The translations under genes and the position numbers were made by a program. This document shows, one piece after another, positions 19,759 through 39,374 of a stretch of 57,753 nt of DNA. The stretch's first letter is position 1; each line of letters begins with the position of its first letter. The DNA is taken from NCBI GenBank assembly GCA_000708525.1, contig JMRP01000016.1:1-57753 (forward strand), in the 5' to 3' direction. Under the pieces are notes generated by a model. That model was not told the origin of the DNA. It worked only from the letters and a program-made list of their open reading frames with translations, and did no database searches. Origin of the DNA: Cyanobium sp. CACIAM 14. GTDB taxonomy: Bacteria > Cyanobacteriota > Cyanobacteriia > PCC-6307 > Cyanobiaceae.

Positions 19759-19832
19759 CGCGCCTGGAGAGATTCGAACTCCCGACCCTCTGATCCGTAG
19801 TCAGATGCTCTAATCCGCTGAGCTACAAGCGC
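19759..19832 (-). tRNA. tRNA-Arg (anticodon ACG)
   Basis: A complete cloverleaf without encoded CCA. The acceptor GCGCTTG pairs with CAGGCGC; the D arm is GCTC/GAGC. The anticodon stem TCTGA/TCAGA closes the loop CTACGGA with anticodon ACG (inosine-modified in bacteria, reading CGN). The T arm is GGGAG-TTCGAAT-CTCTC. The discriminator is G. A terminator follows 13 bases downstream. Confidence 0.97.
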
Positions 19833-22482: not shown

Positions 22483-23253
22483 ATGGCCTCAGCGTCCGAT
22501 GCCGTGCCCGATGCCGTGCCCGTGCTGAGCTGCGATCCGCTGGTGGAGGGGGTGCTGCTGAAGCGCTACAAGCGCTTCCTCGCCGACGTGGCGCTGGACG
22601 ACGGCCGCTCGGTGACGGCCCACTGCCCGAACACCGGGCCGATGACGGGTGTGCTGGTGCCGGGGGGCCGGGTCCGCCTGCGTCACGATCCCTCCCCCAG
22701 CCGCAAACTGGCCTGGACCTGGGAGCAGGCCCAGGTCAGCGGCCATGGCGACAGTCCCGTCTGGGTGGGGGTGAACACGGCACTGCCCAACCGCCTGGTG
22801 CGGGCCACCATCGAAGCCGGTTGCCTGGAGCCCTGGCTGGGCCCGGTGGCCGGGATCCGCGCCGAAGTGCCCTACGGCGAGGGGCGCCGCAGCCGGATCG
22901 ATCTGCTGCTGACGCCGGCAGCCGGAGCCGCCGATTCCCGGCCGATCTATGTGGAGGTGAAGAACACCACCTGGAGCGAAGGGGATCTGGGCCTGTTCCC
23001 GGACACGGTCACTGAACGGGGCCAGAAGCATCTGGAGGAACTCATGGCCGTGCTGCCGGCGGCCCGGGCGGTGCTTGTGCCCTGCCTGAGCCGGGGGGAC
23101 GTGTCGCGCTTCGCACCGGGGGACAGCGCCGACCCCCGCTATGGCGAGCTCTTCCGTGCCGCTCTGGCGGCAGGGGTGGAGGTGCTCCCCTGCAGGTACC
23201 GCTTCGGCAGCGCCTCGGTGGAGTTCCTCGGCCTGGCGACCGTGGAGGTCTGA
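22483..23253 (+). CDS. sfsA: SfsA family protein
   Basis: A 256-residue homologue of sugar fermentation stimulation protein A, a family with an OB-type N-terminus and a nuclease-like C-terminal fold. Visible motifs are VEGVLLKRYKRFLADV, HCPNTGPMTG, SRIDLLL and VEVKNTTW, followed by FPDTVTERGQKHLEEL. The Asp/Glu/Lys set resembles a PD-(D/E)XK active site. It is the last core gene before the hopanoid locus. Confidence 0.93.
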   Translation: MASASDAVPDAVPVLSCDPLVEGVLLKRYKRFLADVALDDGRSVTAHCPNTGPMTGVLVPGGRVRLRHDPSPSRKLAWTWEQAQVSGHGDSPVWVGVNTALPNRLVRATIEAGCLEPWLGPVAGIRAEVPYGEGRRSRIDLLLTPAAGAADSRPIYVEVKNTTWSEGDLGLFPDTVTERGQKHLEELMAVLPAARAVLVPCLSRGDVSRFAPGDSADPRYGELFRAALAAGVEVLPCRYRFGSASVEFLGLATVEV

Positions 23254-23354: not shown

Positions 23355-24554
23355 TCAGCCGGCGGCGTAGGTGCGCCCCTTCCAGGCCCCTCCCCGGCCA
23401 CGCCAGTGGCGCAGAGCTGAATCGATCGTCATCAGGGTGTAGAGCAGAGCGATCGCGGGCAGGGCGAAGGCACGCAGGGGAGACAGTCGGTAGAAGCGCA
23501 GCATGGGGGCATAGGCGAACGCCATCAGCGACCAGCCCGCCAGGCCCAGGACGATCAGGGTCGGATCCCCCAGCAGCAGACCCGCGGCCACCCCGGCCGG
23601 AGGCATTAGGTAGATCAGGCCCATTCCCAGCACGGTGCCCAGCAGCCACCAGGGGGAGTGGTCGAGCTGGGAGAAGGCGGTGCGAGCCACCATCGTCCAG
23701 ATGGACGCCAGATCGGGATAGGGCCGCAGGCTGATGGTGCCGTCGCTTAGACCGAGCCAGAGGCGCCCTTCCCCGAACACCAGGCGGTCGTTGCTCTTCA
23801 CCGCCTGGGCCAGGGTGCAGTCATCGATCAGGGCCCCGTGGATCGAGGCCAGACCGCCGATGCGCTCGAGGGCGTCCCGGTGGATGAGGAGGCATCCGCC
23901 GGCTGCAGCCGCCGTCGGGCTGGTGGGCCGATTCACCCAGCGGAAGGGGTAGAGCATCTGGAAGAAGAACACGAAGGCGGGGATCAGCCATTTCTCCCAG
24001 AGACTCGTGCACCGCAACCGCACCATCAGCGATACCAGCGAGTGCTGACCGGCTTGCGCCCGGGCCACCAGGGCGGCCAGGCTGGCGGGCTCATGCTCGA
24101 TGTCGGCATCGGTGAACAGGATGTATGTCGGGACAGGCTGCAGGGCCTCCGCCATGCGCACCCCCTGGGCCATGGCCCAGAGCTTGCCGCTCCAGCCCCG
24201 GGGCAGAGGGGAACCGTCGCAGATCACGAGCTGATCGCTGCGGCCCAGCTCCTGGGCCGTGCGCCGGGCCACCGATGCGGTGCCGTCGTCACTCTGGTCG
24301 TCGACCAGGATCACCCGGAGAGAACCAACGTAGGTCTGAGCCAGCAGCGAACGCAGGGAACGCGGCAGGACCTCAGCCTCGTTGCGCGCCGGCACCACCA
24401 CACAGACCGGCGGCAGGGGAGGGTGGGGAACGGCGCCTGGGGGAACAGGCGGTGGTGGATCCACCCGCCAGAACTGACCGCGGAAGATCAGCAGATGGAT
24501 CCAGGTGCCAAGGGAGAGGACGACGAGAACCTCAGACACGAAAGAAGTCGTCAT
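23355..24554 (-). CDS. hpnB: Hopanoid-associated glycosyltransferase HpnB
   Basis: A 399-residue family 2 glycosyltransferase anchored in the membrane. An N-terminal helix (SEVLVVLSLGTWIHLLIF) is followed by the GT-A domain with VCVVVPARNEAEVLPRSL, LVDDQSDDGT, PRGWSGKLWAMAQG, FTDADIEHEP (DXD-like) and ALIDDCTLA. Hydrophobic helices follow near the C-terminus. HpnB genes accompany squalene-hopene cyclase in many bacteria, but the acceptor is not established. It is divergent from shc across 107 bases. Confidence 0.9.
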   Translation of the reverse strand: MTTSFVSEVLVVLSLGTWIHLLIFRGQFWRVDPPPPVPPGAVPHPPLPPVCVVVPARNEAEVLPRSLRSLLAQTYVGSLRVILVDDQSDDGTASVARRTAQELGRSDQLVICDGSPLPRGWSGKLWAMAQGVRMAEALQPVPTYILFTDADIEHEPASLAALVARAQAGQHSLVSLMVRLRCTSLWEKWLIPAFVFFFQMLYPFRWVNRPTSPTAAAAGGCLLIHRDALERIGGLASIHGALIDDCTLAQAVKSNDRLVFGEGRLWLGLSDGTISLRPYPDLASIWTMVARTAFSQLDHSPWWLLGTVLGMGLIYLMPPAGVAAGLLLGDPTLIVLGLAGWSLMAFAYAPMLRFYRLSPLRAFALPAIALLYTLMTIDSALRHWRGRGGAWKGRTYAAG

Positions 24555-24661
24555 CGCAAGTAGTCATCCAGGTGACGGGCCCGGAGAACGGCTGGTCCAC
24601 AGGTAGATATTCGCCGCAGTACGCTACCAGCTTCCAACCCGAGTCCGCCAAAGGCTGATCC

Positions 24662-26581
24662 GTGCCAGAGACCATCACCACATCGCCGGTGCAAGCGGCC
24701 ATTCAGTCGAGTCGGAATCATCTGCTTTCGATTCAGCATCCAGAGGGATATTGGTGGTCGGAACTGGAATCCAACGTCACCATGACGGCGGAATTCATTC
24801 TTCTGCACAAGATCTGGAAGACGGATGCCGGCCGTCCATGGCACAAGGCGGAGTCCTATCTGCGATCCCAGCAGAGGGACCATGGGGGCTGGGAGCTGTT
24901 CTTCGGCGATGGCGGTGATCTGAGCACCTCCGTGGAGGCCTACATGGCGCTTCGGCTGCTGGGTGCCCAGCAGACGGACCCAGCCCTGGTGGCCGCTTCG
25001 GAATTCATCCTTGAAAAAGGCGGAATCGAGAAATGCCGCATCTTCACCAAGTTCCACCTTGCCCTGATCGGTTGTTATCCCTGGGCGGGGGTCCCTTCGA
25101 TCCCCCCCTGGGTGATGCTCTTCCCGAACTGGTTCCCCTTCACCATCTATGAATTGTCCAGCTGGGCGCGGGGGAGCACCGTACCGTTGCTGATCGTCTT
25201 CGATCAGAAGCCCGTCTTCCCGGTGGATCCTGTCATCCGGCTGGATGAATTGTATCGGGATCCCAGGGCGAAAACCCATCCATCTCTGCCCCGCTCCGGT
25301 GGCCTCGGCGACGTGTTCGTGCTGCTGGATGGCGCCTTCAAGCTGATGGAGAGGCTTGGCCTGGTGCCCTTCCGCCGCTGGGGCCTGAGGGCCGCCGAAC
25401 GCTGGGTGCTGGAGCGCCAGGAGGCCTCCGGGGATTGGGGAGGGATCATCCCGGCCATGCTCAATTCCCTCCTGGCCCTGCGCACGCTGAACTACGCGGC
25501 CTGTGATCCCATCGTGGCGCGCGGTATGGAAGCGGTCGATCGCTTCACGATCGAATCCGCCGATCAGATCAGAGTTCAGCCCTGCGTGTCCCCCGTGTGG
25601 GACACGGCCCTGACGGTGCGCGCCCTGGGCGCCTCCGGTCTGGCGTCCGACCACCCCGCCCTTGCCCGAGCCGGGGAATGGCTGCTGAACAAGCAGATTC
25701 TCGACTACGGCGACTGGGCCATCAAGAACAGGAGGGGGAAACCAGGAGCCTGGGCCTTCGAGTTCGAGAACCGCTTCTATCCCGATGTGGATGACACCGC
25801 CGTTGTCGTGATGGCGCTGGCCACCGTGTCCCTCGCCGATGAACCACGCAAACGGCAGGCCATGCAGCGGGGGGTCGCATGGATTCTGAGCATGCAATGC
25901 AGGCCAGGCGGATGGGCCGCCTTCGATCTCGACAACGATCAGGCCTGGCTCAACGCACTCCCCTACGCGGATCTCAAGGCGATGATCGATCCAAATACCG
26001 CCGATGTCACCGCCAGGGTTTTGGAGATGCTGGGCCGCCTCGGACACCGTGGCAACGCCGATCAGATCGAGCGGGGACTGGCCTATCTGCTGCGGGAGCA
26101 GGAGCCCGAAGGCTGCTGGTTCGGGCGTTGGGGAGTCAACTACATCTATGGAACCAGCGGTGCGCTGGCCGCCCTGGCGTGGATCAGCCCGGAGCGGCAC
26201 ATCAGGGCCATGGAACGGGGGGTCCGCTGGCTGCTGCAGTGCCAGAACCCCGATGGGGGCTGGGGAGAGTCCTGCCGAAGCTACAGCGATCCTTCCCTCA
26301 AGGGGGTGGGAAAGAGCACCTCCTCGCAGACGGCCTGGGCCATGATCGGGCTGTCGGCCTTCGCCGCCCTCGACGCCAGCCATCTTGCCCTGACCGCCCC
26401 AGCGCTGGAGCGCGGTGCGGGCTATCTGGTGAAGGCCCAGCGTCCGGATGGCACCTGGGAGGAGGCGGAGTTCACAGGGACGGGCTTCCCCTGCCATTTC
26501 TACCTCAAATATCATCTTTATCAGCAGCATTTTCCGCTCACGGCATTGAGCGGTTATGCCCGGCTGGGGGTGTCTCCGTAA
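24662..26581 (+). CDS. shc: Squalene-hopene cyclase
   Basis: A 639-residue monotopic membrane enzyme that cyclises squalene to hopene. The protonating motif DVDD is at residues 375-378, matching the well-studied Alicyclobacillus enzyme. Several QW repeats are present (for example the stretches near QQRDHGGW, QCRPGGWAAFD, QEPEGCWFGRWG and QNPDGGWGES). The C-terminus GTGFPCHFYLKYHLYQQHFP is typical. The start is GTG 24662. The last 44 bases overlap the convergent hpnG gene. Confidence 0.97.
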   Translation: MPETITTSPVQAAIQSSRNHLLSIQHPEGYWWSELESNVTMTAEFILLHKIWKTDAGRPWHKAESYLRSQQRDHGGWELFFGDGGDLSTSVEAYMALRLLGAQQTDPALVAASEFILEKGGIEKCRIFTKFHLALIGCYPWAGVPSIPPWVMLFPNWFPFTIYELSSWARGSTVPLLIVFDQKPVFPVDPVIRLDELYRDPRAKTHPSLPRSGGLGDVFVLLDGAFKLMERLGLVPFRRWGLRAAERWVLERQEASGDWGGIIPAMLNSLLALRTLNYAACDPIVARGMEAVDRFTIESADQIRVQPCVSPVWDTALTVRALGASGLASDHPALARAGEWLLNKQILDYGDWAIKNRRGKPGAWAFEFENRFYPDVDDTAVVVMALATVSLADEPRKRQAMQRGVAWILSMQCRPGGWAAFDLDNDQAWLNALPYADLKAMIDPNTADVTARVLEMLGRLGHRGNADQIERGLAYLLREQEPEGCWFGRWGVNYIYGTSGALAALAWISPERHIRAMERGVRWLLQCQNPDGGWGESCRSYSDPSLKGVGKSTSSQTAWAMIGLSAFAALDASHLALTAPALERGAGYLVKAQRPDGTWEEAEFTGTGFPCHFYLKYHLYQQHFPLTALSGYARLGVSP

Positions 26582-27251
26582 ACAACTTACGCGCCAGCAG
26601 GTGCAGGGCTCGCAAGGCCTTCAGGGACCCGCCGATCAGACGGGTGGCCGCCTTCGGACGTTTCAGAAAAGCCAGCAGTAGTGGAAACGCCTGCGGAGTT
26701 CCCCCTGACGACAGAGCCCCATGGAGATCAGGGATGTCATGGTCACAGTCGTCACTCACCACCCGGAGGATTGCCACGTGATGACCAGCCTCCGAGAGGA
26801 TATCCAGGACAGGAAAACTCTCCATGTCGACCATGTCGGCGTGGGTCTTCCGCCCAAGCAGTTTCTTGTCGTGGCGTCGGCACACCACCGCATCAGCGGT
26901 GATCAGACGGCCGGTGCGGATCCCTGGGGCGGACCGGGCGATGGTGGCCGTCAGAGGGGCGTCACAGGCTCTCCAGACGACGGCCATGTCCTCCGGCTGC
27001 CGACCACAATCCCGAATCAGAAGGGCTTCGCCGACGGGCAGATCTTCCACCAGTGCGCCCCCGAGACCCATCAGCAGGATCCGTGATCCCGGCGGGAACA
27101 AGCCGTCGGCGATCAGTCGTTCCAGATGGGGTCTCTGCGCCACCCGGCCGATGGGAATCGGCGCCACCGTCGGTCCATGCGGTGAGGCCATGCGGATCGA
27201 GGCCGCGACGGCACGGTGCTCCAACCCGGCGGGCACGAGAATCACATCCAC
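26538..27251 (-). CDS. hpnG: HpnG, adenosylhopane nucleosidase (phosphorylase superfamily)
   Basis: Removes adenine from adenosylhopane to give ribosylhopane. The conserved part runs from VDVILVPAGLEHRAVAASI through LMGLGGAL, TADAVVCR and VDMESFPVLDILSEAG to VVSDDCDHDIPD, fitting the nucleoside-phosphorylase fold. Its neighbours hpnH, shc and hpnA make the assignment strong. GTG 27251 is chosen because residues upstream to an ATG at 27473 are Arg/Ser-rich and unlike the family; the longer start cannot be excluded. The 3' end overlaps shc by 44 bases. Confidence 0.85.
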   Translation of the reverse strand: MDVILVPAGLEHRAVAASIRMASPHGPTVAPIPIGRVAQRPHLERLIADGLFPPGSRILLMGLGGALVEDLPVGEALLIRDCGRQPEDMAVVWRACDAPLTATIARSAPGIRTGRLITADAVVCRRHDKKLLGRKTHADMVDMESFPVLDILSEAGHHVAILRVVSDDCDHDIPDLHGALSSGGTPQAFPLLLAFLKRPKAATRLIGGSLKALRALHLLARKLFTETPPAGHNRSMP

Positions 27252-27643
27252 TGAAAGGGTCGACGAAGTCTCCTGCCTGGGCACTCGTGGAAAGGGACGG
27301 GGCGAAGGGGAAAGATCCAGGAGCTCCGCTCGCCGATCGGATCCAAAGCTACTGGCTCGTTCCGGTCTTTTCGCCTCTCTCCTCGTTTCGCCGGCCCTTC
27401 CTGCCGATCGCTGCCGAGCGTGAAGGCTGGCGTTGAAGCTTTCGGTGAAGACCTTCCGATGGGGTGAATCCATCGGCTGGCTGGCATCCAGCCAGAAGCT
27501 TCATCCAGGCAGGCTGATTGACACCGACACCCCTGCCAACTCCAGCCCTGCTTCCAGTTCCGTCTCCGTCTGTGGATGATTCGTGATAGGTGCCACAGTT
27601 CTAGAGTCATCCGATACCCAGCGATCCGATAGCAACTTCGGGA
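27252..27643. other. Divergent stretch between hpnG and the RND gene
   Basis: About 390 bases. The hpnG frame stays open to 27473 but its residues look non-coding. The rest holds no supported gene. A TTGACA-like hexamer occurs near 27517 without a matching -10. Promoters for both directions are expected here. Confidence 0.4.
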
Positions 27644-30310
27644 ATGCACGCAGCCAACGAGCAGAAGTCTGTACGCCAGACCATGAATGTCTCACGGCTG
27701 GCCATAAGATATCCACGCCTCACGATTGGATTCTGGCTCGCCGTCGTGGTGGCAGGCCTGATTGCCTTTGGCTCCCTGCGCTATGCCCTCTTTCCCGACA
27801 TCACCTTTCCAGTGGTGATTGTGAATGCAACGGGCCCAGAAGCTACAACATCCCTGGCGATGGAGTCAGAAGTCACCATACCGATCGAGGAGAGATTGAA
27901 GCGGCTCGAAAATCTTGATGACATCATCTCGACGACAGCACCCGGCAGGGTTTCCGTGAGAGTCTCCTTCCAGGTGGGAACGGACCTGGAAACGGCAAGA
28001 AAGGCAACCCGGAAGGCCCTGAGTTCCGTGATCTTGCCAGAGGGAACGGCGGTGGAGACGGTCTCTCTGAATCTCAATGAGTCTTCAGCGGTGACCTATG
28101 TCGTCCAGAGTTCTTCGTTGGATCTGGATCGACTCAGTGTCCGCACGGAAGCGCGAGTGGTCCGGCCGGTCTGCGCCGTCAAGGGGGTCCTCAAGGTGAG
28201 AATGCTCGGCCTGCTGCAGCCTCCCACTACAATGACTGATTCTGCCCAGCTTGAGATTTCCACCCCTACTCAGGTGAGGTTCAATGGGGAGGCTGCACTG
28301 GCACTCGAGGTGATCAAGACGAGCCAGGCCAATACGATTGATCTCGTCAAACGAGTAGAGGAAGAAATCGAGAAGATCCGTGCTGGGCTACCAGATATTC
28401 AGATTATTCAGGCATCAACCCAGGCCCACTACATCGAGGAAGCCAGCAATGCCACAATGGAATCAATCGCGATCGCCATCGCATTGTCGGTCATCGTGAT
28501 TTACCCCTTTCTTTGGAACTGGCCGGCCACCCTGATTGCTGCCCTGGCCATCCCCACCTCTCTCCTGGGTACGTTCATCGTGATGGCCATCTGCGGATTC
28601 AATCTGGAGACGATTACCCTGCTTGCAATTGCCCTGGTCGTGGGCATCATTGTGGATGATGCCATTGTCGATGTCGAGAATATCTCCCGCCACCTGGACA
28701 TGGGGAAACCTCCACGGGAAGCAGCTGTTGACGCCACCGATGAAGTAGGCCTCACCGTTACAGCCGCCACCCTCACCATCGCCGCCGTGTTCCTTCCAGT
28801 CGGCTTGATGGGAGGAGTCGTGGGGCAATTCTTTCGGCCCTTCGGCATCACGGTGTCAGCCGCCGTGTTGATCTCTCTGCTGGTGGCCCGAACGCTTTCT
28901 CCTCTTCTTTCGATGTGGTGGCTACGGAAAGCGCCCCCGAGAGCTGAGGGGAGTCGTTGGCGATCGTTTCTGAATGGATACGACTCCCTGCTGAACTGGT
29001 CACTCGGACATCGCTATCTGGTGGTTGCTGCGACGATCTTCAGCCTCGTGCTCGGGATCGGGCTGGTCTTTGTCGTAGACAAGGGTTTCATTCCCAGGCT
29101 CGACCGAGGCGTATTCATCATCAGATATGTCTCCCAGAAACTTGCAGCACCAGGGGAAGATGCCATGGCGATGGAGCCTGGAGATCGTGCGCTCAAGGAC
29201 ACGGCGATGGTTCTACTGCATACAAAGAGCCAGGCCATCGAGATCGAGAATCTGGTGAGACATACCCCTGATGTGGAGGATGTGCTGATGACGGTGGGGA
29301 CAAGATGGGGGGAGCCTGACTCAGGGGATCTGCTGGTCAGATTGAAGAAGGATCGCCCATTGACCACCACCGAGATAAAGAAGGAGATTCGTGACAGGCT
29401 TGCAGCACTATCGGGTCTGAAGATCAGCGTGGAAGACATTCCATTTGTGGATACAGGCAGTGAACAGCCGATTCAGATCAGGCTGCATGGCTCCAACCTG
29501 AAGACACTCAATGAAACTGCTCTGAAAATCAAGGATCACATCTCCGGATTGCCAGGCCTTGTCGATGTTTCGACGACAGCAAGCCCTTCGTCAGACCAGG
29601 GAGATCAGTCAGGTTCGGCCGATGGGTTGATCGAGCGCGAGAACGGACGGCGGGTACGCTACATCAGGGCGAACATCAACCCTCACATTTCCGTTGATCA
29701 GGCTGTGCAACTGATCGACAAGGCCACAAGGCGGATGCTGCCGAATGGCATCACAATGACCATGGGAGGAGATTCACAGCGCATCGGGGAGATCCTGAAG
29801 AGCTTTGCATCAACAATGATTCTTGGGATTGTCTGTATCATTGCCGTCCTTTACATCCTGTTCAAGAGCTGGAGCGATCCACTCATCATCGCCTTCTCGT
29901 TGCCACTCTCACTGGTCGGGGCCATGCTGGCGTTGATCCTGACCGGCCATGAGTTCGGAATGATCTCTGTGATTGGTGTGATTTTCCTGATGGGCCTGAC
30001 GAACAAGAACGCCATCATCATGGTCGATTACATCAATCAGTTGCGCCAGACGGGCCTGGCACGAAAAGATGCCGTTCTCAAGGGTGCCTCCGTTCGCCTC
30101 AGGCCGATTCTGATGACAACGGCCGCAACGATCCTGGGCATGCTGCCCGTCGCTCTCGGCCTGGGTGCGGGGTCAGAACTGAGAGCACCGATGGCGATTG
30201 CCATCATGGGAGGATTGATGGCGTCATCGCTCCTGAGCCTCCTGGTGATCCCCGTGATGTACAGCCTGTTCGAAGGCCTCCGCTTCAAGATGGCACGATC
30301 GGCGGGATGA
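27644..30310 (+). CDS. RND permease of the HAE1/AcrB type lacking docking subdomains
   Basis: An 888-residue proton-driven RND permease; family members usually have about 1030. Both halves are present: TM1 near residues 28-45 and the TM4 proton-relay Asp pair in GIIVDDAIVDVEN (D338, D339). The TM10 lysine is in LTNKNAIIMVDY (K788). The porter domains have unusually short middles. From VRMLG (~188) to VRFNGEAALALEV (~211) only about 20 residues remain where AcrB has about 100. The second half is cut likewise around residues 643-665. These are the DN and DC docking subdomains. No adaptor or TolC gene is adjacent. It is probably part of the hopanoid locus, perhaps replacing the unrelated MmpL-type HpnN. 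ATG 27683 is an alternative start. Confidence 0.85.
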   Translation: MHAANEQKSVRQTMNVSRLAIRYPRLTIGFWLAVVVAGLIAFGSLRYALFPDITFPVVIVNATGPEATTSLAMESEVTIPIEERLKRLENLDDIISTTAPGRVSVRVSFQVGTDLETARKATRKALSSVILPEGTAVETVSLNLNESSAVTYVVQSSSLDLDRLSVRTEARVVRPVCAVKGVLKVRMLGLLQPPTTMTDSAQLEISTPTQVRFNGEAALALEVIKTSQANTIDLVKRVEEEIEKIRAGLPDIQIIQASTQAHYIEEASNATMESIAIAIALSVIVIYPFLWNWPATLIAALAIPTSLLGTFIVMAICGFNLETITLLAIALVVGIIVDDAIVDVENISRHLDMGKPPREAAVDATDEVGLTVTAATLTIAAVFLPVGLMGGVVGQFFRPFGITVSAAVLISLLVARTLSPLLSMWWLRKAPPRAEGSRWRSFLNGYDSLLNWSLGHRYLVVAATIFSLVLGIGLVFVVDKGFIPRLDRGVFIIRYVSQKLAAPGEDAMAMEPGDRALKDTAMVLLHTKSQAIEIENLVRHTPDVEDVLMTVGTRWGEPDSGDLLVRLKKDRPLTTTEIKKEIRDRLAALSGLKISVEDIPFVDTGSEQPIQIRLHGSNLKTLNETALKIKDHISGLPGLVDVSTTASPSSDQGDQSGSADGLIERENGRRVRYIRANINPHISVDQAVQLIDKATRRMLPNGITMTMGGDSQRIGEILKSFASTMILGIVCIIAVLYILFKSWSDPLIIAFSLPLSLVGAMLALILTGHEFGMISVIGVIFLMGLTNKNAIIMVDYINQLRQTGLARKDAVLKGASVRLRPILMTTAATILGMLPVALGLGAGSELRAPMAIAIMGGLMASSLLSLLVIPVMYSLFEGLRFKMARSAG

Positions 30311-30349
30311 CGCCAAACGATTGGCGGCCCACCCATTGGCAACCTTGAG

Positions 30350-31342
30350 ATGCCGGAGAAGGTCTTTGTCACGGGTGGAGCAGGGTTTGTCGGGACCAAC
30401 CTGATTCACCTGCTGCTCGAGCAGGGCTATCAGGTCAAGGCCTTGGCAAGGTCGTCATCCTCGACGCAAAACCTCGATGGCCTTGATATCGAGCTGGTTC
30501 AGGGCGACCTGAACGACACGAACCTATGGTCACAGATGAGGGGATGCGAGGCGCTCTTTCATGTGGCAGCACATTATTCGCTTTGGCAGGCCGATCGAGA
30601 TCGGCTTTACCGTGACAATGTGCTTGGCACGCGTGCCATTCTTCAGTCAGCACGACGAGCTGATGTGAGGAGGGTTGTATACACAAGCTCAGTGGCTGCC
30701 ATCGGTACCGGTCGCCGTGGAGAAGCCCTCACTGAAACCCACCAGACACCCATGGAGCAGCTGATCGGAAACTACAAAAAGTCAAAGTTCCTCGCAGAGT
30801 TGGAGGCCAAAAAGGCCGTGGCTGCTGGGCAGGACGTGGTGATTGTGAATCCCACGAGCCCCATTGGGCCGTGGGACCGCAAGCCCACACCAACGGGTGA
30901 CATCATTCTGCGCTTCCTTCGCAGGCAAATGCCCTTCTATCTGGATACAGGCCTGAACTTCATTGACGTGAGAGATGTGGCCTGGGGTCATTTGCTTGCC
31001 CTAGAAAAGGGAGTGACTGGACAACGATATATCCTTGGACATCAGAATATGACGCTGAAATCCATGCTTGATCTGCTCGCGGCCCATACAGGACTTCCCA
31101 GCCCATCGCAACGGATACCCCACTGGTTGCCCCTGCTATCCGCCTGGGTGGACGAACGTCTTCTTGCCAGGCTGGGGAAATCCCCCTCGATCGCTCTGGA
31201 TGGGGTAAGGATGGCGAGTCAGCACATGTACTATGACAGCTTCCTCGCCGTCCACGAACTCGGTTTGCCCCAGTCGCCTGTGACACGCGCACTGGCCACG
31301 GCGATTGACTGGTTTGAGAAGAACGGCTTCGTGCAACTCTGA
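30350..31342 (+). CDS. hpnA: Hopanoid-associated sugar epimerase HpnA
   Basis: A 330-residue extended short-chain dehydrogenase/reductase. The Rossmann motif GGAGFVGTNLI starts at residue 9, and the catalytic Tyr/Lys lie in NYKKSKFLAE with the upstream Ser in VYTSSVAAIG. HpnA genes recur in hopanoid clusters; a role in side-chain processing is assumed but not proven. It follows the RND gene by 39 bases, so it belongs to the same plus-strand transcription unit. Confidence 0.92.
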   Translation: MPEKVFVTGGAGFVGTNLIHLLLEQGYQVKALARSSSSTQNLDGLDIELVQGDLNDTNLWSQMRGCEALFHVAAHYSLWQADRDRLYRDNVLGTRAILQSARRADVRRVVYTSSVAAIGTGRRGEALTETHQTPMEQLIGNYKKSKFLAELEAKKAVAAGQDVVIVNPTSPIGPWDRKPTPTGDIILRFLRRQMPFYLDTGLNFIDVRDVAWGHLLALEKGVTGQRYILGHQNMTLKSMLDLLAAHTGLPSPSQRIPHWLPLLSAWVDERLLARLGKSPSIALDGVRMASQHMYYDSFLAVHELGLPQSPVTRALATAIDWFEKNGFVQL

Positions 31343-31526
31343 AATCGCATCAGTTGCCAACAGGCTGCGTGCCGATGCCGACAGCGCCGGTCGAGAGCTC
31401 GACAGCCAGGATGCCAGAAAAAATGCTCCCAGAGGAGGGGAAGGGCCGCGCAGATCCCCATGGGAGTAAAATTAGCGTGTTCTTCAGGTTCAACGACGTG
31501 CAGACACTCAACCCTGGATCTCAGTG
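31343..31526. other. Spacer between hpnA and hpnH
   Basis: 184 bases without a gene. A short A-rich run around 31418 and the AGGAGGGG at 31433 are not close enough to hpnH to serve as its ribosome site. A separate promoter for hpnH could lie here. Confidence 0.4.
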
Positions 31527-32549
31527 ATGGCTGTTCATCTGAAGCAGGCTGTTGAAGTCGGGAAGTATCTGATGCTTCAGCGCCTCAAGGGGCGGAGGCG
31601 TTACCCACTGGTCCTGATGCTTGAACCCCTTTTTCGCTGCAATCTGGCCTGCCCTGGATGCGGAAAGATCCAACACCCTGTGGACGTTCTGCGGCAGCAT
31701 CTCAGTCCGGAGCAATGTTTTGCGGCAGCCGAGGAATGCGGAGCCCCTGTTGTATCCATTCCAGGGGGTGAACCCTTGATGCATCCGGAGATCGACAGGA
31801 TCGTATCCGGCCTGGTGGAACGCAGAAAGTTTGTCTATCTATGCACGAATGGCTTACTGCTTGAAAAGAGCCTGGATAAGTTTCAACCTTCGCCCTACCT
31901 CACCATCAGCGTTCACCTTGATGGCATGCAAGCCCGGCATGACCATTGCGTGGATCGGAGCGGTGTCTTTGACACGGCCATATCGGCCATCAAAGCCGCC
32001 AAGAAGAGAGGCTTCAGAGTCACAACGAACACAACCACCTTCAAGGGAATGGATCCCGCCGAAGTGCAGGAACTTTTCGACTTCCTGGAGAACCTCGGGA
32101 TCGATGGCATGATGATATCGCCGGGATATAACTATGAATGGGCGCCGGACCAGAAGCATTTCCTTGCCAGAGAACAGACCCATCAGCTCTTCAGGGAGAT
32201 ACTTGCCCCCTTCCGGTCGGGAGAGAAGTCCTGGAATTTCAATCACAATCCTCTCTTTCTAGACTTCCTGACGGGGGATAAGGACTATGAATGCACACCC
32301 TGGGGGAGCCCCAGCTACAGTGTCCTTGGCTGGCAGAAGCCGTGCTATCTCCTCAATGAGGGACACTATTCCACCTTCCAGGAGCTTATCGACAACACCG
32401 ATTGGGAGCACTACGGACGAGCGAGTGGCAACCCGAAATGTGCTGACTGCATGGTTCACTGTGGTTATGAACCGACCGCCGCTGTTGATGCCATGAATCC
32501 CGCCAACATGAAACGTGCTCTTGGCAGTGTGCTGGGTCTCGCCCGGTGA
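31527..32549 (+). CDS. hpnH: Adenosyl-hopene transferase HpnH (radical SAM)
   Basis: A 340-residue radical SAM enzyme joining the 5'-deoxyadenosyl group to hopene, the first side-chain step of C35 hopanoids. The cluster motif CNLACPGC is near residue 37 (CX3CX2C). [24 protein letters not shown] and TISVHLDGM are further family landmarks. Late Cys residues ([14 protein letters not shown]) match the HpnH C-terminal domain. ATG 31527 (MAVHLKQAV) is preferred to the adjacent GTG 31524. Confidence 0.96.
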
Positions 32550-32636
32550 GCCCCAGCTCAGAGCACCACAGGCGCATCATCCTGCGACTTTCTCATTGAA
32601 CACCGCTGAAACCTCAACTCTTGCTGTGGCCCCACC

Positions 32637-33470
32637 ATGTCTCTTCGCTCCGATGCCCTGCAGACGCTGAAAGACACCAGCCGGACCTTCTATATACCCA
32701 TTCGGCGGTTGCCCGATGGGCTGCTGGAGGCTGTTTCCTCCGCCTACTTGTGCATGCGGGCGATCGACGAAGTTGAGGACCATCCCAGCCTTGACAATGT
32801 CACCAAGACTTCCTTGCTCCGTAGGATCAGCCTGAATTTTCAGGCGGCAAACGGTGAACGGAGCAGCGTCTCCTTTGGGGATGGCCTGCAGGCTCCCGAC
32901 AACGACCTGGCTGAAGTCTCCCAGAGGATTGGGGAATGGGCCTCCCTGGCGCCGTCGGCGATCGCACCACGGATCTGGGATGCCACTGCCGCCATGGCGG
33001 ATCGGATGGCCTACTGGGCAGAGTGCAGCTGGCGCATCGAAACGGAGGCAGAGCTCAATCAGTACACATTCAGTGTGGCAGGGTCGGTAGGCCTTCTGCT
33101 TTCAGATCTGTGGGCCTGGTACGACGGGACACAGACTGATCGAACCCTGGCTGTTGGATTCGGCCGCGGACTGCAGGCTGTGAACATCCTTCGCAACCAG
33201 AGGGAGGATATCAGTCGAGGGGCTAACTTCCTTCCAGTCGGATGGGATCGCAGCCAGATGCATGCCTATGCCAGTCGGAACCTGTCACTGGCGGATGCCT
33301 ACACCAATCAACTGGCCCCTGGCCCCATACTCGACTTCTGCAGAATTCCCCTGACCCTTGCCCATGGGACGCTGCAGGCGATGGCTCTCGGGGATCTCAA
33401 GCTCAGTCGGGCGCGGGTGATGCAGCTCATTGAAGAGGTCATGGGCGAAAGAGTTCTGGAACTTGATTAG
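32637..33470 (+). CDS. Squalene/phytoene synthase family protein, probable squalene synthase
   Basis: 277 residues with the class I head-to-head prenyl synthase fold. The first Asp-rich motif is AIDEVED near residue 43. The second reads NILRNQREDISRG near residue 185, with Asn where the first Asp of DXXXD normally stands. The flanking shc and hpn genes make squalene the likely product. There is no hpnC/hpnD/hpnE trio in the window, so one enzyme may convert farnesyl diphosphate to squalene. Another activity, such as making a hydroxylated or dehydro product, cannot be excluded. It ends seven bases before hpnJ. Confidence 0.85.
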   Translation: MSLRSDALQTLKDTSRTFYIPIRRLPDGLLEAVSSAYLCMRAIDEVEDHPSLDNVTKTSLLRRISLNFQAANGERSSVSFGDGLQAPDNDLAEVSQRIGEWASLAPSAIAPRIWDATAAMADRMAYWAECSWRIETEAELNQYTFSVAGSVGLLLSDLWAWYDGTQTDRTLAVGFGRGLQAVNILRNQREDISRGANFLPVGWDRSQMHAYASRNLSLADAYTNQLAPGPILDFCRIPLTLAHGTLQAMALGDLKLSRARVMQLIEEVMGERVLELD

Positions 33471-33477
33471 GAGACCG

Positions 33478-34932
33478 ATGCTGCGCACTCTGTTTCTCAG
33501 TCCGCCCTCGTTCAATGGCTTTGACGGAGGGGCAGGCGCCAGGTACCAAGCCAAGCGGGAGATCACATCGTTCTGGTATCCCACCTGGCTGGCTCAGCCG
33601 GCGGCCCTCGTCCCCGGAAGCAGGTTGGTCGACGCACCGCCCCATGGCCTGGAAATCGGGGATGTCCTGGCGATCGCCCGGGATTACGACCTGGTGATCA
33701 TGCACACCAGTACGCCGTCCATCCGCAACGATGTTCTATGCGCCCAGGCCATCAAGTCTGAGAAGAAGGATACATTGATCGGGTTCATTGGAGCCCATGT
33801 GGCTGTTCTTCCTGAGCAAACACTCCGCCATCATCCCGGCATTGACTTTGTTTGTCGGCATGAGTTTGACCTTACCTGCAAGGAGTTGGCAGAGGGTCTC
33901 CCCTGGGATCAGATCAGCGGTCTGAGCTTCCGTGACAAGGATGGGGAAATCCGCCACAATCCGGACCGCAGTCTTATCCACGACTGGGATGCCATGCCCA
34001 GTGTGCTGCCCACCTACGCCCGCGACCTGGATATCCGTAAGTATTTCATCGGCTACCTCCTCCACCCGTATATCTCCTTTTACACAGGTCGCGGCTGCCC
34101 CGCCAAATGCAGTTTCTGCCTGTGGCCCCAGACCATTGGGGGCCATCAATACAGGGCCAAGAGCCCGGAAGTGGTCGGTAGGGAAATGGAAGAAGCGAAG
34201 GCCATTTTTGGAAACCGTGTGCGTGAATACATGTTCGATGACGATACATTTACCATCGACAAGCAAAGAGCGATTGAAATCAGCAGACATATGAAGCGCT
34301 TGAAGCTTACCTGGAGCTGCAATGCCCGCGCGAATCTTGATTACGACACTCTCAAGACCTTGCGCGACAATGGGCTGCGGTTGCTGCTGGTAGGTTTTGA
34401 ATCTGGCAATCAGCAGATTCTTGACAACATAAGGAAAGGCGTGAGGCTTGAAGTGGCCCGTAAGTTCATGAAGGACTGCAAGCGGCTTGGCATTCTCGTG
34501 CACGGCACATTCATCATTGGTCTTCCGATCGAAACTCCGGACACCGTTGAAGAAACCATCCAGTTTGCCTGTGAAATCAGTCCTCACACCATCCAGGTTT
34601 CGATCGCGGCTCCCTATCCCGGAACAGAGTTGTATGCCCAGGCCCAACAACATGGGTGGTTCTCTGACGACTCTCTTGTTGCAGAATCCGGCATCCAGAC
34701 CTCAACACTGAGCTATCCTTCCTTATCTGGCAGCCAGATCGAAGACTCGGTTGAGCAGATGTACCGACGCTTCTACCTGCGCCCGAAGGCCATCCTCCCA
34801 ATTGTTCGAGAGATGGTTACAGATCCCCAGATGTTGTCCCGAAGACTGCGCGAAGGCCGGGAATTCTTCTCCTATCTCCGTGAACGTAGGGCCCAGCAGT
34901 CGGCCGCCCATGCGTCTGCAGCTTCTCGCTGA
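33478..34932 (+). CDS. hpnJ: HpnJ, B12-binding-domain radical SAM protein
   Basis: About 484 residues. An N-terminal cobalamin-binding-type domain (about 1-150) is followed by the radical SAM core with CPAKCSFC (CX3CX2C) in GRGCPAKCSFCLWPQ. YMFDDDTFTIDK, NARANLDY and LVGFESGNQQIL match the family. In Burkholderia, HpnJ contracts the glucosamine ring of the hopanoid head group to a cyclitol. ATG 33478 has AGGAG five bases upstream; the longer in-frame start lies inside the preceding gene. hpnK follows after 12 bases. Confidence 0.93.
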   Translation: MLRTLFLSPPSFNGFDGGAGARYQAKREITSFWYPTWLAQPAALVPGSRLVDAPPHGLEIGDVLAIARDYDLVIMHTSTPSIRNDVLCAQAIKSEKKDTLIGFIGAHVAVLPEQTLRHHPGIDFVCRHEFDLTCKELAEGLPWDQISGLSFRDKDGEIRHNPDRSLIHDWDAMPSVLPTYARDLDIRKYFIGYLLHPYISFYTGRGCPAKCSFCLWPQTIGGHQYRAKSPEVVGREMEEAKAIFGNRVREYMFDDDTFTIDKQRAIEISRHMKRLKLTWSCNARANLDYDTLKTLRDNGLRLLLVGFESGNQQILDNIRKGVRLEVARKFMKDCKRLGILVHGTFIIGLPIETPDTVEETIQFACEISPHTIQVSIAAPYPGTELYAQAQQHGWFSDDSLVAESGIQTSTLSYPSLSGSQIEDSVEQMYRRFYLRPKAILPIVREMVTDPQMLSRRLREGREFFSYLRERRAQQSAAHASAASR

Positions 34933-34944
34933 GATCATCAGATT

Positions 34945-35829
34945 GTGGTTGATGAATTGCCCCTGTCCCAGGCGAGAAAACAGCGAAAGATGGTCATTAA
35001 TGGCGATGACTTTGGCTATTCCCATGACGTCAATCTGGCCATCATCTCGGCGCACCAGTCCGGCATTCTGACCAGTGCAAGTCTGATGGTGACAGGCGAA
35101 GCCTTCAACGAAGCCGTCGAACTCGCCAGAGAGAATCCCAAACTTGGAGTGGGACTTCACCTGGTTGTCGGCAAGGGACGTTCGGCTCTCCCTGTCTCCC
35201 AGGTACCGCACCTCGTGGATAGCTCCGGCCAGTTTCCCAGCGCCCCTCTGGTGGTTGGACTTCGCTATCAGTTCAACCGCGCCGCCCGCAGAGAGTTGCG
35301 ACTGGAGATCGAGGCCCAACTGCAACGATTCAAAGAGACTGGCCTCACCCTCAGCCACGTGGATGGCCATCTTCACAATCACGTTCACCCCTATGTGCTG
35401 CAATGCCTGGTGGCTCTTTCGCGGAACTATGGCATTCATTTCATCCGGCTTCCCTACGAGGAGTTGACGCTCGACTGGTCCACAGGCTCCAGGCCAGGCC
35501 CGAGCCAGGTCATCCTATGGAGTGTCTTTCGGCTGCTGCGGATCTATGGCGTCAGGCTGCTCTCCGCTCACCGTATAGGCTATGCAGATCGTGTCTATGG
35601 GCTGCTCCATTCGGGACGCATCACTGAAGCTTATCTGCAGAAGCTGATCCCCCTCATTACTGCAGACAGGGTAGAACTCTACGCCCATCCATCACTGGGT
35701 GGCAACGATAATACAACCCAGACCAGTAACAACCACGAGCAATCTGAGTTTCACTCCTTGACGAGCAGCAGGGTCAGCCATCTGATTGCCATGAGCGGCT
35801 TTCAACGGGTCACATTCACAGAACTCTGA
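34945..35829 (+). CDS. hpnK: HpnK, YdjC-type carbohydrate deacetylase
   Basis: 294 residues. YdjC/ChbG-family metal-dependent deacetylase motifs are clear: VINGDDFGYSHDVN near residue 17 (Asp pair) and SHVDGHLHNHVHP near residue 135 (metal His). In the characterised pathway HpnK removes the acetyl group from N-acetylglucosaminyl-bacteriohopanetetrol made by HpnI, before HpnJ acts. GTG 34945 is the longest start; ATG 34990 (MVINGDDFG) is an equally reasonable choice. Confidence 0.92.
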   Translation: MVDELPLSQARKQRKMVINGDDFGYSHDVNLAIISAHQSGILTSASLMVTGEAFNEAVELARENPKLGVGLHLVVGKGRSALPVSQVPHLVDSSGQFPSAPLVVGLRYQFNRAARRELRLEIEAQLQRFKETGLTLSHVDGHLHNHVHPYVLQCLVALSRNYGIHFIRLPYEELTLDWSTGSRPGPSQVILWSVFRLLRIYGVRLLSAHRIGYADRVYGLLHSGRITEAYLQKLIPLITADRVELYAHPSLGGNDNTTQTSNNHEQSEFHSLTSSRVSHLIAMSGFQRVTFTEL

Positions 35830-35839
35830 TCCCATTTAG

Positions 35840-35877
35840 AGGTTGCCTTGCTCGGAGGCCTTGCTAGGTTGCCTTGC
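35840..35877. repeat. 12-base direct repeat before hpnI
   Basis: AGGTTGCCTTGC occurs at 35840-35851 and again at 35866-35877, separated by 14 bases. The second copy includes the TTG used as the longest hpnI start, which makes the 5' end of hpnI uncertain. Confidence 0.8.
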
Positions 35878-37070
35878 CCCAGATCCTTACCCATTTTGTC
35901 AATCTTATGGTCGGCAGCATCATGCTGGTGGTTACGGTTGCCGGCATCTTCTACTATCTGGCCGCCTGTTACGCGGTCTTTCGATTCAAGCAGGAAAGCC
36001 ATGGGGATCATGCGCTGATCCAGCCCCCTGTCACGATCGTCAAACCCCTCCATGGGGCTGATTCAGACACCTACGGGGCTCTGGAGAGTTTCTGCTGCCA
36101 GAACTATCCATGTTTCCAGATGATCTTTTCAGTTCGCTCCCCCGCTGACCCTGTGGTAGCGGTGGTTGAACAACTGATCCACGATTATCCTCACCTCGAC
36201 CTCTGCCTGGTCGTCAGTGATCACAGCTGGGGGGCCAACAACAAGGTCAACAACATGGCCAACGCACTGGCACATGCCAAACATCCCATCTATGTGTTTG
36301 CAGATAGCGATATATGGGTCCAGCCTGACGACCTGGTTCGGATCCTGCAGCCGCTGGCGAATCCCCATGTTGGTCTGATCACCACCATGTACCGCACCCG
36401 GCCCAAGGGCTGGTTGGCGGCCTTCGAGGCACTGGGGACTTCGACGGAGTTCTTCCCCTCCGTCCTTCTGGCCCGCCAGCTGGAGGGCATGGCCTTTGCT
36501 TTCGGAGCCACCATCGTCATCCGTCGGGATGTGCTGGAATCTTTCGGCGGGTTACCTGTCATTGCCAACTATCTGGCGGATGATTACAAGATCGGCGCCT
36601 GCACAGCCAAGGCCGGTTACCAGGTGGTCCTTTCCGATTGTGTGGTGGAACACGCACTGACAACCGCAGATCTCAAGTCGTTGATCCTCCATCAGTTGCG
36701 CTGGGTCCGTGGAAACAGGTTTTCTCGCCCCTGGGGCACGCTGGGACTTCTGTTCAGCTACGGCACCGTCTCGAGCCTGGCATTTCTCCTGCTCACCAAC
36801 GGATCTTTGCTTGCGGTGCTGCTGTTCAGCCTCTCATGGATGCTCAGGTATCTCCTGGGATGGATGGTAGGTGTGCGTCTGCTCCAAGACCAACCGGCTA
36901 GCCGCCTCCTCTGGCTGGCACCGGTCCGTGATCTGGTGAGTTTTTTGATCTGGTCGGCTAGCTGGTTCGGTTCTGATGTTGTATGGAACAACCGTCATTT
37001 CAGGCTCTCCAAGGGTGGATGGATCAGGGAATATCCCTCACCGACATCCCCGTTGCCCCCCCTCCGTTGA
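35874..37070 (+). CDS. hpnI: HpnI, ceramide-glucosyltransferase-like hopanoid glycosyltransferase
   Basis: 398 residues, GT family 21-like, membrane-anchored. After an N-terminal helix the GT-A domain shows VTIVKPLHGADSDTY, a DXD-type FADSDIW, and ADDYKIG. The HQLRW segment stands at the (Q/R)XXRW position, here with His first. C-terminal hydrophobic helices follow. In Burkholderia HpnI adds N-acetylglucosamine to bacteriohopanetetrol. TTG 35874 is the longest start; ATG 35907 (MVGSIMLVV) may be the true one. It converges with the ABC exporter gene. Confidence 0.9.
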   Translation: MPQILTHFVNLMVGSIMLVVTVAGIFYYLAACYAVFRFKQESHGDHALIQPPVTIVKPLHGADSDTYGALESFCCQNYPCFQMIFSVRSPADPVVAVVEQLIHDYPHLDLCLVVSDHSWGANNKVNNMANALAHAKHPIYVFADSDIWVQPDDLVRILQPLANPHVGLITTMYRTRPKGWLAAFEALGTSTEFFPSVLLARQLEGMAFAFGATIVIRRDVLESFGGLPVIANYLADDYKIGACTAKAGYQVVLSDCVVEHALTTADLKSLILHQLRWVRGNRFSRPWGTLGLLFSYGTVSSLAFLLLTNGSLLAVLLFSLSWMLRYLLGWMVGVRLLQDQPASRLLWLAPVRDLVSFLIWSASWFGSDVVWNNRHFRLSKGGWIREYPSPTSPLPPLR

Positions 37071-37116
37071 CTGGCTGGTGAGAGTTGATGCTGCAGATTC
37101 TGGCCCTCCATGCCGA

Positions 37117-37133
37117 ACGCCGACAGTCGGTGT
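37117..37133. terminator. Possible hairpin between hpnI and the ABC gene
   Basis: A 7-bp stem ACGCCGA/TCGGTGT with a three-base loop lies between the convergent hpnI and ABC gene ends. There is no T run, so its role as a terminator is uncertain. Confidence 0.25.
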
Positions 37134-37135
37134 CG

Positions 37136-38767
37136 TCACCATGGCTTCGCAGAGGCTGCTGAGACAACTTTTCCATCCTCCAGCTTGACCAATCTATCGG
37201 CCAGATGAAAATATCGGTCATCATGGGTGATGACGATGATTGTTTTACCCTGTCGATTCATTTCCGGCAGGATCTGCTGATAGAATAACTCTTTGAACGA
37301 AGGATCCTGATCCGCCGCCCATTCATCAAAGAGATAGATTGATCGGTCTTCAAGATAGGCGGTCAGCAGTGCCAGGCGTTTGCGTTGCCCCTGGGAGAGG
37401 TGAATACTGGAGAACCTCCCTCCCTCTACCCTGACCTTTCCAGATAGCCTCAGTTTCTGGAGATAGAGCTCTGCTTTTCTGTCAAGCTGCCGATGCCCAA
37501 GACCAAGCAATCTTTCAAACAGATGGAAGTCTGAGAAGACGGCTGAAAAATGCTGCCGATACCATTCGCGGTTGTCCTCATTGATCTGGATGCCATTGAT
37601 TCTCACTTCACCGGACTCTGGCGCATAGAGACCGGCAATCAATTTTGCGAGTGTCGACTTTCCACTGCCGTTGCCACCGATGATGAACAGTAACTCACCC
37701 CTCCTGATCTCCAGGTCGACAGGGCCCAAGACGAAACTATCGTCGGCATCTTCTTTGTAGTATGGATAGACAACATTTCTGAGCTCCAGCCTCGTCCAGG
37801 CACTGTCATCCAGCGAGCTTTCCTTGATCGCTTCCTGGTGCAGAGCCAGAGACAACCCCAGAGAGCTGATCTTCCGAAGGGACACATTGGACTTGCTCAG
37901 ATAAGGAAGATTATTGACAATATTATCAATTGGCAGCATCATGAATGTGAAGGTAAGAATGTAGCTTGAGACCATCTGCCTGCTGGAGGCAATCCATTGA
38001 GGTAACGCAAACAAAATGATCCCAGCCGCAACGAAAAATATCAACTTTCCGACACTTGAAGAGATGGCAAAGCGAACGAGACCCTGAATGCTGAGATTCC
38101 TAAATCGTCTGGCGCTTGTTTCCACTTCCTCATCCAGAAAGGCAAGACGTCTGCGCTGGTTGAGCTTGAGTTCCTTGATCCCTTCCGTGGTGCTTCGGAA
38201 ATGGCTGAACAGCTGGTCCTCCTCGTCTCTCGCATGCTTCAGAAACCACTCCCCTGACCTCACGAAGCGGATGCAGGTGAGGGCCGCCAGGCTGCAGAGA
38301 ACCACCGTCAGCACCAGCCCCGTCCAGGAGAGCCAGGTGATGTACACCAGGCAACCCACCGCAGTGGCAAGATCGATGCAGACAAAGGGGATGCGCTCGA
38401 TCGCATCGGTGATGGCATGAACATCCTGAGTGAGACTCGCCATCAACCTCGGGCCCCCAAGCTCTTCCAGTCGATTCAGTTCGGTCTGAATGATCTGGCG
38501 AACCAGTCTGATTCGCATCTGCAAAACGGCACCCTGGGACAGATGCACAAGCACCACCTGCGAAACAATGCTGGTGACCAAGGCCACCACCATGAGCCCT
38601 GCGAACCCTGCCATCAGCCATTCCCCATTGCCAGCGGTGGGCTGATTGATCGCATGGCTGATGAGGCCGATCAAGGCGGCGGAGCTCCCTCCGCTGAGAA
38701 TCCCCGTGATGACCGCGATCAGCATCCTTCGCCCGGATGAGCGCAGCAGAAAGCGAATCAGCTCCAT
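37136..38767 (-). CDS. Cyclic-peptide-export-type ABC transporter (PvdE/SyrD/YojI family)
   Basis: 543 residues, a fused six-helix membrane domain and ATPase. Walker A is GGNGSGKS (364-371), the signature is LSQGQ (458-462), Walker B is IYLFDE (477-482) and the switch His is 515. The membrane domain and the FSDFHLF Q-loop region match exporters such as PvdE and YojI. It opposes the hpn operon and lies at its end, in the most AT-rich stretch of the locus. No peptide synthetase or precursor gene is nearby, so the substrate is unknown; export of hopanoid or another lipid is only a speculation. Confidence 0.88.
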   Translation of the reverse strand: MELIRFLLRSSGRRMLIAVITGILSGGSSAALIGLISHAINQPTAGNGEWLMAGFAGLMVVALVTSIVSQVVLVHLSQGAVLQMRIRLVRQIIQTELNRLEELGGPRLMASLTQDVHAITDAIERIPFVCIDLATAVGCLVYITWLSWTGLVLTVVLCSLAALTCIRFVRSGEWFLKHARDEEDQLFSHFRSTTEGIKELKLNQRRRLAFLDEEVETSARRFRNLSIQGLVRFAISSSVGKLIFFVAAGIILFALPQWIASSRQMVSSYILTFTFMMLPIDNIVNNLPYLSKSNVSLRKISSLGLSLALHQEAIKESSLDDSAWTRLELRNVVYPYYKEDADDSFVLGPVDLEIRRGELLFIIGGNGSGKSTLAKLIAGLYAPESGEVRINGIQINEDNREWYRQHFSAVFSDFHLFERLLGLGHRQLDRKAELYLQKLRLSGKVRVEGGRFSSIHLSQGQRKRLALLTAYLEDRSIYLFDEWAADQDPSFKELFYQQILPEMNRQGKTIIVITHDDRYFHLADRLVKLEDGKVVSAASAKPW

Positions 38768-39374
38768 GTCATGGGGGATTTACATCGGCAAGAAATCACA
38801 CATCCTCAGCGGATCTTTTCCAGCGGTCTGTCGTTTCCCTGTCCTTTCATGCTTCCACGCATGCTGCCGATCGGCCGGATCTCCTCTTCGCGACCCGAGC
38901 GACAGGGAGGCATGCCTGGAGAGTGCGGGAACCCGCGACCCCGGCGAACACGGCGACCTCGGCGACCCCATCCAATCCGACCACTTCAACTTTATGCATT
39001 TCTTTTCATCCATTTCTTTGCATCGATCCCAGACGTGCCTTCCAATTCAGACATCGTTCTGAGAGCCTGCACCTCCGGGTCGCCGAGGCCAAGCATCCTA
39101 TGGGAGCGCAGGCTTGCCCCCCGGCGGCGGCGGAACTGGCGCCTTCCCCCTTCCCAGCGCCGTGCAGCGCCCCACCGCGCCCGACCCTGCTCGCCCGGCC
39201 AGCGGGCAGCCGGCGGCTCCGGACCCGCCCCGGGCTGCAGCTCCGCGCGCGGCGTGTCCATCCGTTCGCGGCCTCTCCTCTCGGCCTTCCGCCCATGGCC
39301 CTCCGAGGCTCCGGTCCGTTTCACGCCCTTCGCAGCGCCGCGGCCCATAGAGTCGGGTCAACCGGTACCTGCCC
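38768..39374. other. 607-base intergenic stretch at the right edge of the hopanoid locus
   Basis: No supported gene. The left third is AT-richer (promoter of the ABC gene expected). It includes a perfect 10-base palindrome AGGCATGCCT at 38908-38917. From about 39100 the sequence turns very GC-rich and resembles core leader sequence before ispH. Long open frames here have no recognisable protein character. Confidence 0.5.

Follow-up and report, generated by a model that had tools for sequence, protein, structure and literature searches.

The window analysed here is a 57,753-nucleotide stretch of Cyanobium sp. CACIAM 14 (G000; assembly GCA_000708525.1), the whole of contig JMRP01000016.1 (G000:C16) of a 3.2 Mb draft genome. 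Between the core genes sfsA and ispH it carries eleven genes for the predicted synthesis and transport of hopanoids. Taking all evidence jointly, we hold with high confidence that they form a self-contained hopanoid cassette, obtained by lateral transfer from a Scytolyngbya/Leptolyngbyaceae-like filamentous cyanobacterium, with the pathway and transport proposed below. The family to which this strain belongs also includes genera with genomes of 1.5–1.9 Mb, in keeping with picocyanobacteria. The enzymes of the cassette are ordinary; its transfer, the slot in which it sits and its transporter are the interesting part.

Composition, rarity and gene content

The GC content is 54–58% in 2-kb windows between 27 and 39 kb, 62–67% over hpnB to hpnG and mostly 67–75% on both flanks. 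GC at third codon positions (GC3) is 0.63–0.69 from hpnG to the ABC exporter gene, 0.78 in shc and 0.84 in hpnB, compared with 0.88–0.91 in sfsA and ispH. The gene shc is found in just two of the 42 genus genomes, G000 and the Kiruna metagenome-assembled genome (MAG; G010), and the same two are the only ones of 150 genomes of the order with HpnJ above the cut-off. Among 386 sampled cyanobacterial genomes, HpnJ occurs in 36 (E <= 1e-90) and HpnH in 82 (E <= 1e-100), and every HpnJ bearer also has HpnH. We conclude that the locus is accessory and foreign. An earlier note on this DNA had left room for a core locus, should all relatives carry it at this site; the distribution of shc settles this in favour of an accessory one. 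All genes that the note had named between sfsA and ispH are there, in the order it gave. It did not cover the drop in GC and foreign origin, the gene for an ammonium transporter at this site in relatives, the status of sqs as sole candidate or the nature of the RND transporter.

Family calls follow the curated NCBIfam cut-offs, which seven Hpn/Shc families exceed and hpnG does not (Table 1). From rnd through hpnI the intergenic gaps are -5 to 181 bp, as in a transcription unit. The hpnG-like gene and the 3' end of shc share 44 bp, and the start position of the former is uncertain. For hpnJ, ATG at 33466 is the likelier start compared with TTG at 33430, because the TIGR03471 match begins at residue 19; HpnJ also bears a CxxxCxxC motif. 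In both bearers the frames are open over the compared lengths, and the radical-SAM cysteines, the DXDDTA motif and the relay-like residues of the RND protein are retained.

Table 1. Genes of the cassette, its core neighbours and the right junction in the window.
Feature	Position	Strand	Evidence and remarks
sfsA	22483..23253	+	left core neighbour; TIGR00230 218.6 bits, cut-off 126.45; in 42/42 genus genomes searched
hpnB, hopene-associated glycosyltransferase	23355..24554	-	TIGR03469 556.7 bits, cut-off 379.25; 76% identity in G010
shc (hpnF), squalene-hopene cyclase	24662..26581	+	TIGR01507 901.9 bits, cut-off 431.1; DVDDTA at residue 375 (script)
hpnG-like phosphorylase	26538..27473	-	TIGR03468 72.7 bits, cut-off 187.1; conserved part about 26538-27255
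rnd, RND transporter, AcrB (HAE-1) type, 888 aa	27644..30310	+	PF00873 569 bits; phmmer alignment to MdtB
hpnA, hopanoid-associated sugar epimerase	30350..31342	+	TIGR03466 453.2 bits, cut-off 367.65
hpnH, adenosylhopane synthase, radical SAM	31524..32549	+	TIGR03470 539.8 bits, cut-off 225.05; CxxxCxxC motif
sqs, cyanobacterial-type squalene synthase candidate	32637..33470	+	PF00494 84.6 bits
hpnJ, radical-SAM enzyme for cyclitol ether	33466..34932	+	TIGR03471 780 bits, cut-off 577.6; listed ORF from 33430
hpnK, deacetylase	34945..35829	+	TIGR03473 269.5 bits, cut-off 232.6
hpnI, bacteriohopanetetrol N-acetylglucosaminyltransferase	35874..37070	+	TIGR03472 343 bits, cut-off 310
ABC exporter (cyclic-peptide/SyrD-like family)	37136..38767	-	TIGR01194 492 bits, cut-off 286.2
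right junction	38768..39374		last ~50 bp alone match ispH leader of relatives
ispH	39375..40583	+	right core neighbour; NF009911 683.1 bits; in 42/42 genus genomes

Closest relatives and probable donor

Of 154 HpnJ relatives in named genomes the best 80 were kept, all cyanobacterial by their titles. Closest among these is HpnJ of the Kiruna MAG with 89% identity, followed by Scytolyngbya sp. HA4215-MV1 with about 84–85%. The Scytolyngbya locus (L040, JAHHIA010000001.1) matches the window in all eleven genes and in their order, the ABC gene alone being inverted, and is the only one among the best 80 of 154 HpnJ loci that shows the whole order; many of these loci end at a contig or flank edge. 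Identities between its proteins and those of the window are 81% for HpnH, 71% for Shc, 70% for Sqs, 60% for the ABC exporter and 55% for the RND protein. The Scytolyngbya locus differs in the strand of the ABC gene, in its GC3 of 0.51–0.61 and in its flanks, which have no sfsA or ispH match. In a quick maximum-likelihood (ML) tree of 80 rows, built on the 80 HpnJ loci less one left out for length, the window and the Kiruna MAG group with an SH-aLRT support of 100 and are joined by Scytolyngbya with 91. A tree of sqs built in the same way from 45 rows gives 100 and 96 for these nodes. The gene order and both trees point to a donor of the Scytolyngbya kind.

Predicted pathway and expected lipid

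The gene content can reasonably be read as a route from squalene to bacteriohopanetetrol (BHT) cyclitol ether. Sqs would condense two farnesyl diphosphates to squalene, which Shc would cyclise to hopene. HpnH would then place an adenosyl group onto hopene and the HpnG-like phosphorylase would take the adenine off, with a further step leading to BHT. HpnI is expected to add N-acetylglucosamine to BHT, HpnK to deacetylate it and HpnJ to rearrange the product to the cyclitol ether. Movement of hopanoids out of the inner membrane would then fall to the RND protein and possibly to the ABC exporter as well. That this strain could make the cyclitol ether had been claimed by the earlier note; shc, hpnH, hpnI, hpnK and hpnJ pass their cut-offs, an hpnG-like gene accompanies them, and the claim stays a prediction from genes.

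The last three steps correspond to the HpnI, HpnK and HpnJ route as summarised in the passages of PMC12583986 used here. Common to both are the three families, which in the window exceed their curated cut-offs and lie adjacent; the host differs in being a cyanobacterium, in which the product is a predicted one. All five members of the cyanobacterial hopanoid co-occurrence module 65 (HpnA, HpnB, HpnF, HpnH and a phosphorylase; PMC5862535, in part) are present in the cassette, which adds to them the RND protein, the ABC exporter and HpnIJK, left unmentioned in the passages on this module. The earlier note had seen no hpnO, hpnP or hpnR in the window. With the HpnJ model, no B12-type radical-SAM protein of G000 other than HpnJ scored above 57 bits, a partial check for hpnP and hpnR; for hpnO the view covers the window alone. 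By titles and abstracts, the open-licence literature gave no report of hopanoids in picocyanobacteria. Talbot et al. 2008, said to be the classic survey of cyanobacterial bacteriohopanepolyols, may hold relevant strains.

The genome holds two genes of the SQS_PSY type, the cassette sqs and a CrtB-like gene elsewhere, which leaves sqs as the only candidate for the predicted squalene synthase activity. All 16 HpnJ-bearing genomes tested have a CrtB-like gene and one sqs-type gene, with a 36-bit third match in G236; the five hopanoid-negative genus members tested have the CrtB-like gene alone and no squalene synthase candidate. The window gene is of the type that stands beside hpnJ in many cyanobacteria. 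Two variants of cyanobacterial squalene synthase, an enzyme that always accompanies the hopanoid module, are described in the part of PMC5862535 consulted. The first Asp-rich motif of Sqs is DEVED and the second is altered to NQRED. In an alignment of 46 rows, the commonest forms of this cyanobacterial type likewise begin the second motif with N instead of D. Two other readings of sqs were rejected. The PF00494 match ends near residue 200, as it might in a truncated or frameshifted gene, but the other two frames hold no continuation and 44 complete neighbours measure 273–278 residues. An extra gene of other function is disfavoured by the 16 HpnJ-bearing genomes, in which no strong second synthase was found.

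Several points weigh against a self-contained cassette from a donor of the Scytolyngbya kind with the cyclitol ether as product. HpnI and HpnG share only 49% and 37% identity with their Scytolyngbya counterparts, which implies either an old transfer or a donor not closely related to that strain, and since many HpnJ loci end at a contig or flank edge, other donors with the same order are possible. The gene that the earlier note had called hpnG is at its place, but it lies on the minus strand and scores below the family cut-off, 72.7 against 187.1 bits. Its protein does align with the products of genes that take the place of hpnG in other cyanobacteria and has in common with them the MES/MEG and SDD stretches, which have a catalytic meaning. 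The second Asp motif of Sqs is not DxxxD. No enzyme is known for the conversion of ribosylhopane to BHT (PMC12583986, passages used here), and the product is a prediction from gene content. It is conceivable, if unlikely, that the pathway stops short, at diplopterol or hopene, BHT or BHT glucosamine with little cyclitol ether, or that the cassette is decaying. The weak HpnG match would fit this, as would the dominance of BHT glucosamine in many strains with hpnI/J/K reported in the same passages of PMC12583986; the open frames and retained motifs of both bearers speak against it.

An RND transporter without docking subdomains

The RND protein scores 569 bits with the AcrB-type model PF00873 and 20 bits with the HpnN model, for which the cut-off is 751.85. 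In a phmmer alignment with MdtB, residues about 202-284 and about 695-814 of MdtB have no counterpart in it. From AcrB anatomy we take these to be the TolC-facing docking subdomains, DN and DC. Across 30 distinct orthologues of 868–921 residues, the two sites hold 15–49 and 58–69 residues. D338, D339, K788 and R818 (the Asp pair of transmembrane helix (TM) 4, Lys of TM10 and Arg of TM11) are present in 31 of 31 alignment rows, which correspond to 30 distinct proteins with the window protein counted twice. We regard them as equivalents of AcrB D407, D408, K940 and R971, a proton-relay-like set. Judged by its sequence, the protein is an HAE-1 scaffold that lacks both TolC-docking subdomains. An AlphaFold model built from five sequences was unusable (mean pLDDT 48.9, pTM 0.34).

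At E <= 1e-120 the RND protein is found in 71 of the 386 cyanobacterial genomes, and 69 of these 71 also have HpnH (Fisher p 3.8e-60, kinship ignored). Two carriers (G227, G273) lack HpnH, and 13 HpnH bearers lack the RND protein at this threshold, absences that are soft because two candidates were scored per genome. In 26 of the 69, rnd and hpnH lie on one contig within 7.3 kb; in the rest the two genes are widely separated or on separate contigs. Seven named loci show rnd, and in each of them it adjoins hpnA or hpnG. HpnN exceeded its cut-off in none of 17 genomes, 16 of them HpnJ bearers, in a search for which 14 control genomes yielded no positive control. Given that 69 of 71 carriers also have HpnH, the RND protein may replace HpnN and act as its cyanobacterial stand-in.

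We tentatively propose, at somewhat less than even confidence, that cyanobacteria, of which those tested lack HpnN, move hopanoids by a dedicated AcrB-type pump that has lost both docking subdomains and converged on the funnel-less shape of HpnN. The pump would travel with the biosynthetic genes in a whole make-and-ship cassette, so that one transfer could make a hopanoid-free picocyanobacterium a producer. HpnN of Burkholderia (HAE-3; PMC8277102) is alike in being an RND protein without docking funnel that is coded in a hopanoid cluster; the protein described here differs in being HAE-1. An ordinary multidrug pump was considered, and architecture and genomic company argue against it, though a substrate of that kind is possible. 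The term RND was not found in the main text of PMC5862535, nor was the RND protein found in cyanobacterial hopanoid work in the open-licence literature, by titles and abstracts.

The ABC exporter (TIGR01194, cyclic-peptide type) lies near hpnJ or hpnI in 25 of the 80 HpnJ loci at an identity of at least 45%. A hopanoid-linked role of such exporters is absent from the passages of the cited papers.

The sfsA-ispH site as a proposed exchange slot

The site between sfsA and ispH holds an amt-type ammonium transporter gene of 504–506 residues in 15 close relatives as well as in G168, which is more distant; PF00909 was confirmed there in the seven of these 15 relatives that were tested. Of 24 other genus members, 23 have at most 400 bp between sfsA and ispH, and one (G169) has ~1 kb. 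G000 and G010 carry the cassette at this site and no amt there, with one Amt gene elsewhere each. In G010 the stretch 5' of ispH is similar, over 182 bp at 70% (E 2e-15, against 0.025 for the best of 50 shuffles), to the final 75 bp of amt together with its terminator and the leader of ispH. About 70-100 bp of this match are terminator and leader common to the relatives, and about 75 bp are amt coding sequence. From this resemblance G010 likely keeps a decayed amt end, and amt was probably displaced. In G000 the match is limited to ~50 bp of the leader.

The two bearers are not sisters, since in a tree of nine core proteins G000 pairs with G145 (97.5/97) and G010 joins seven amt-bearing species (100/100). 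Five genomes with fewer than five of the nine proteins were left out of this tree (G113, G153, G166, G169, G174); G145 has six. At fourfold sites, G000 and G010 diverge by 0.34–0.67 in the cassette genes and by 0.25–0.29 in sfsA and ispH, and we estimate that base composition explains part of this difference, not all.

We favour that picocyanobacteria exchanged the cassette through recombination in its conserved flanks, or that it arrived twice, with sfsA-ispH as an exchange slot, an account we rate as about evenly balanced, leaning slightly to doubt. It agrees with the non-sister bearers, with a cassette more divergent than its neighbours and with the variable content of the slot, which may be amt alone, amt with a further 6 kb or so (G133), other sequence of about 1 kb (G169) or next to nothing. 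In G168 (L193 1415-2926), the slot amt shares 92% identity with its counterpart in G040, as opposed to about 79% for the core proteins of G168 with G000 and G010, and the slot amt itself seems to have moved too. Less well accommodated are the two bearers, too few to count gains against losses, and the interval, where all eleven cassette genes are otherwise identified and no integrase or att-like repeat was seen, although no dedicated search for these was made. The sole tRNA of the window (19759-19832) lies off the border of the site.

Alternatively, the close-relative group had the cassette in its ancestor and most of its lineages lost it, with amt refilling the site and G000 and G010 as survivors. 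We consider this rather doubtful. The shared site and order, the monophyly of both bearers in the gene trees and a similar left-to-right GC3 gradient would be expected from it. However, the core tree would require that the cassette was lost several times and that amt returned to the site, and the fourfold divergence exceeds that of vertical descent with the core, a comparison made inexact by differing base composition. An assembly chimera, in which a filamentous cyanobacterial contig was misjoined into a picocyanobacterial genome, is hardly credible. Both genomes appear to be drafts and the GC jump resembles a misjoin, but G010, a separate assembly, has the same cassette between the same flanks at 58–89% protein identity, and both junctions lie within the contig in the window.

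G133 shows further features at this site and of its Amt genes. Behind its slot amt, which is 71% identical to the others, lie frames of 414 and 778 residues (L188 3192-7249); judged by eye, the larger has a histidine-kinase-like end and the smaller resembles a membrane protein. A second Amt gene (G133:C9:26420-27373) appears split into two pieces that differ in frame, one of which contains a stop.

Implications

Hopanoids and BHT cyclitol ether serve as source markers in waters and sediments, and rare, transferred picocyanobacterial producers would blur such readings. The cassette is also a natural gain-of-function test, as species with and without it share the chromosomal neighbourhood. A partner of HpnH with unusual architecture, found across the phylum, makes hopanoid movement in cyanobacteria testable by the removal of one gene.

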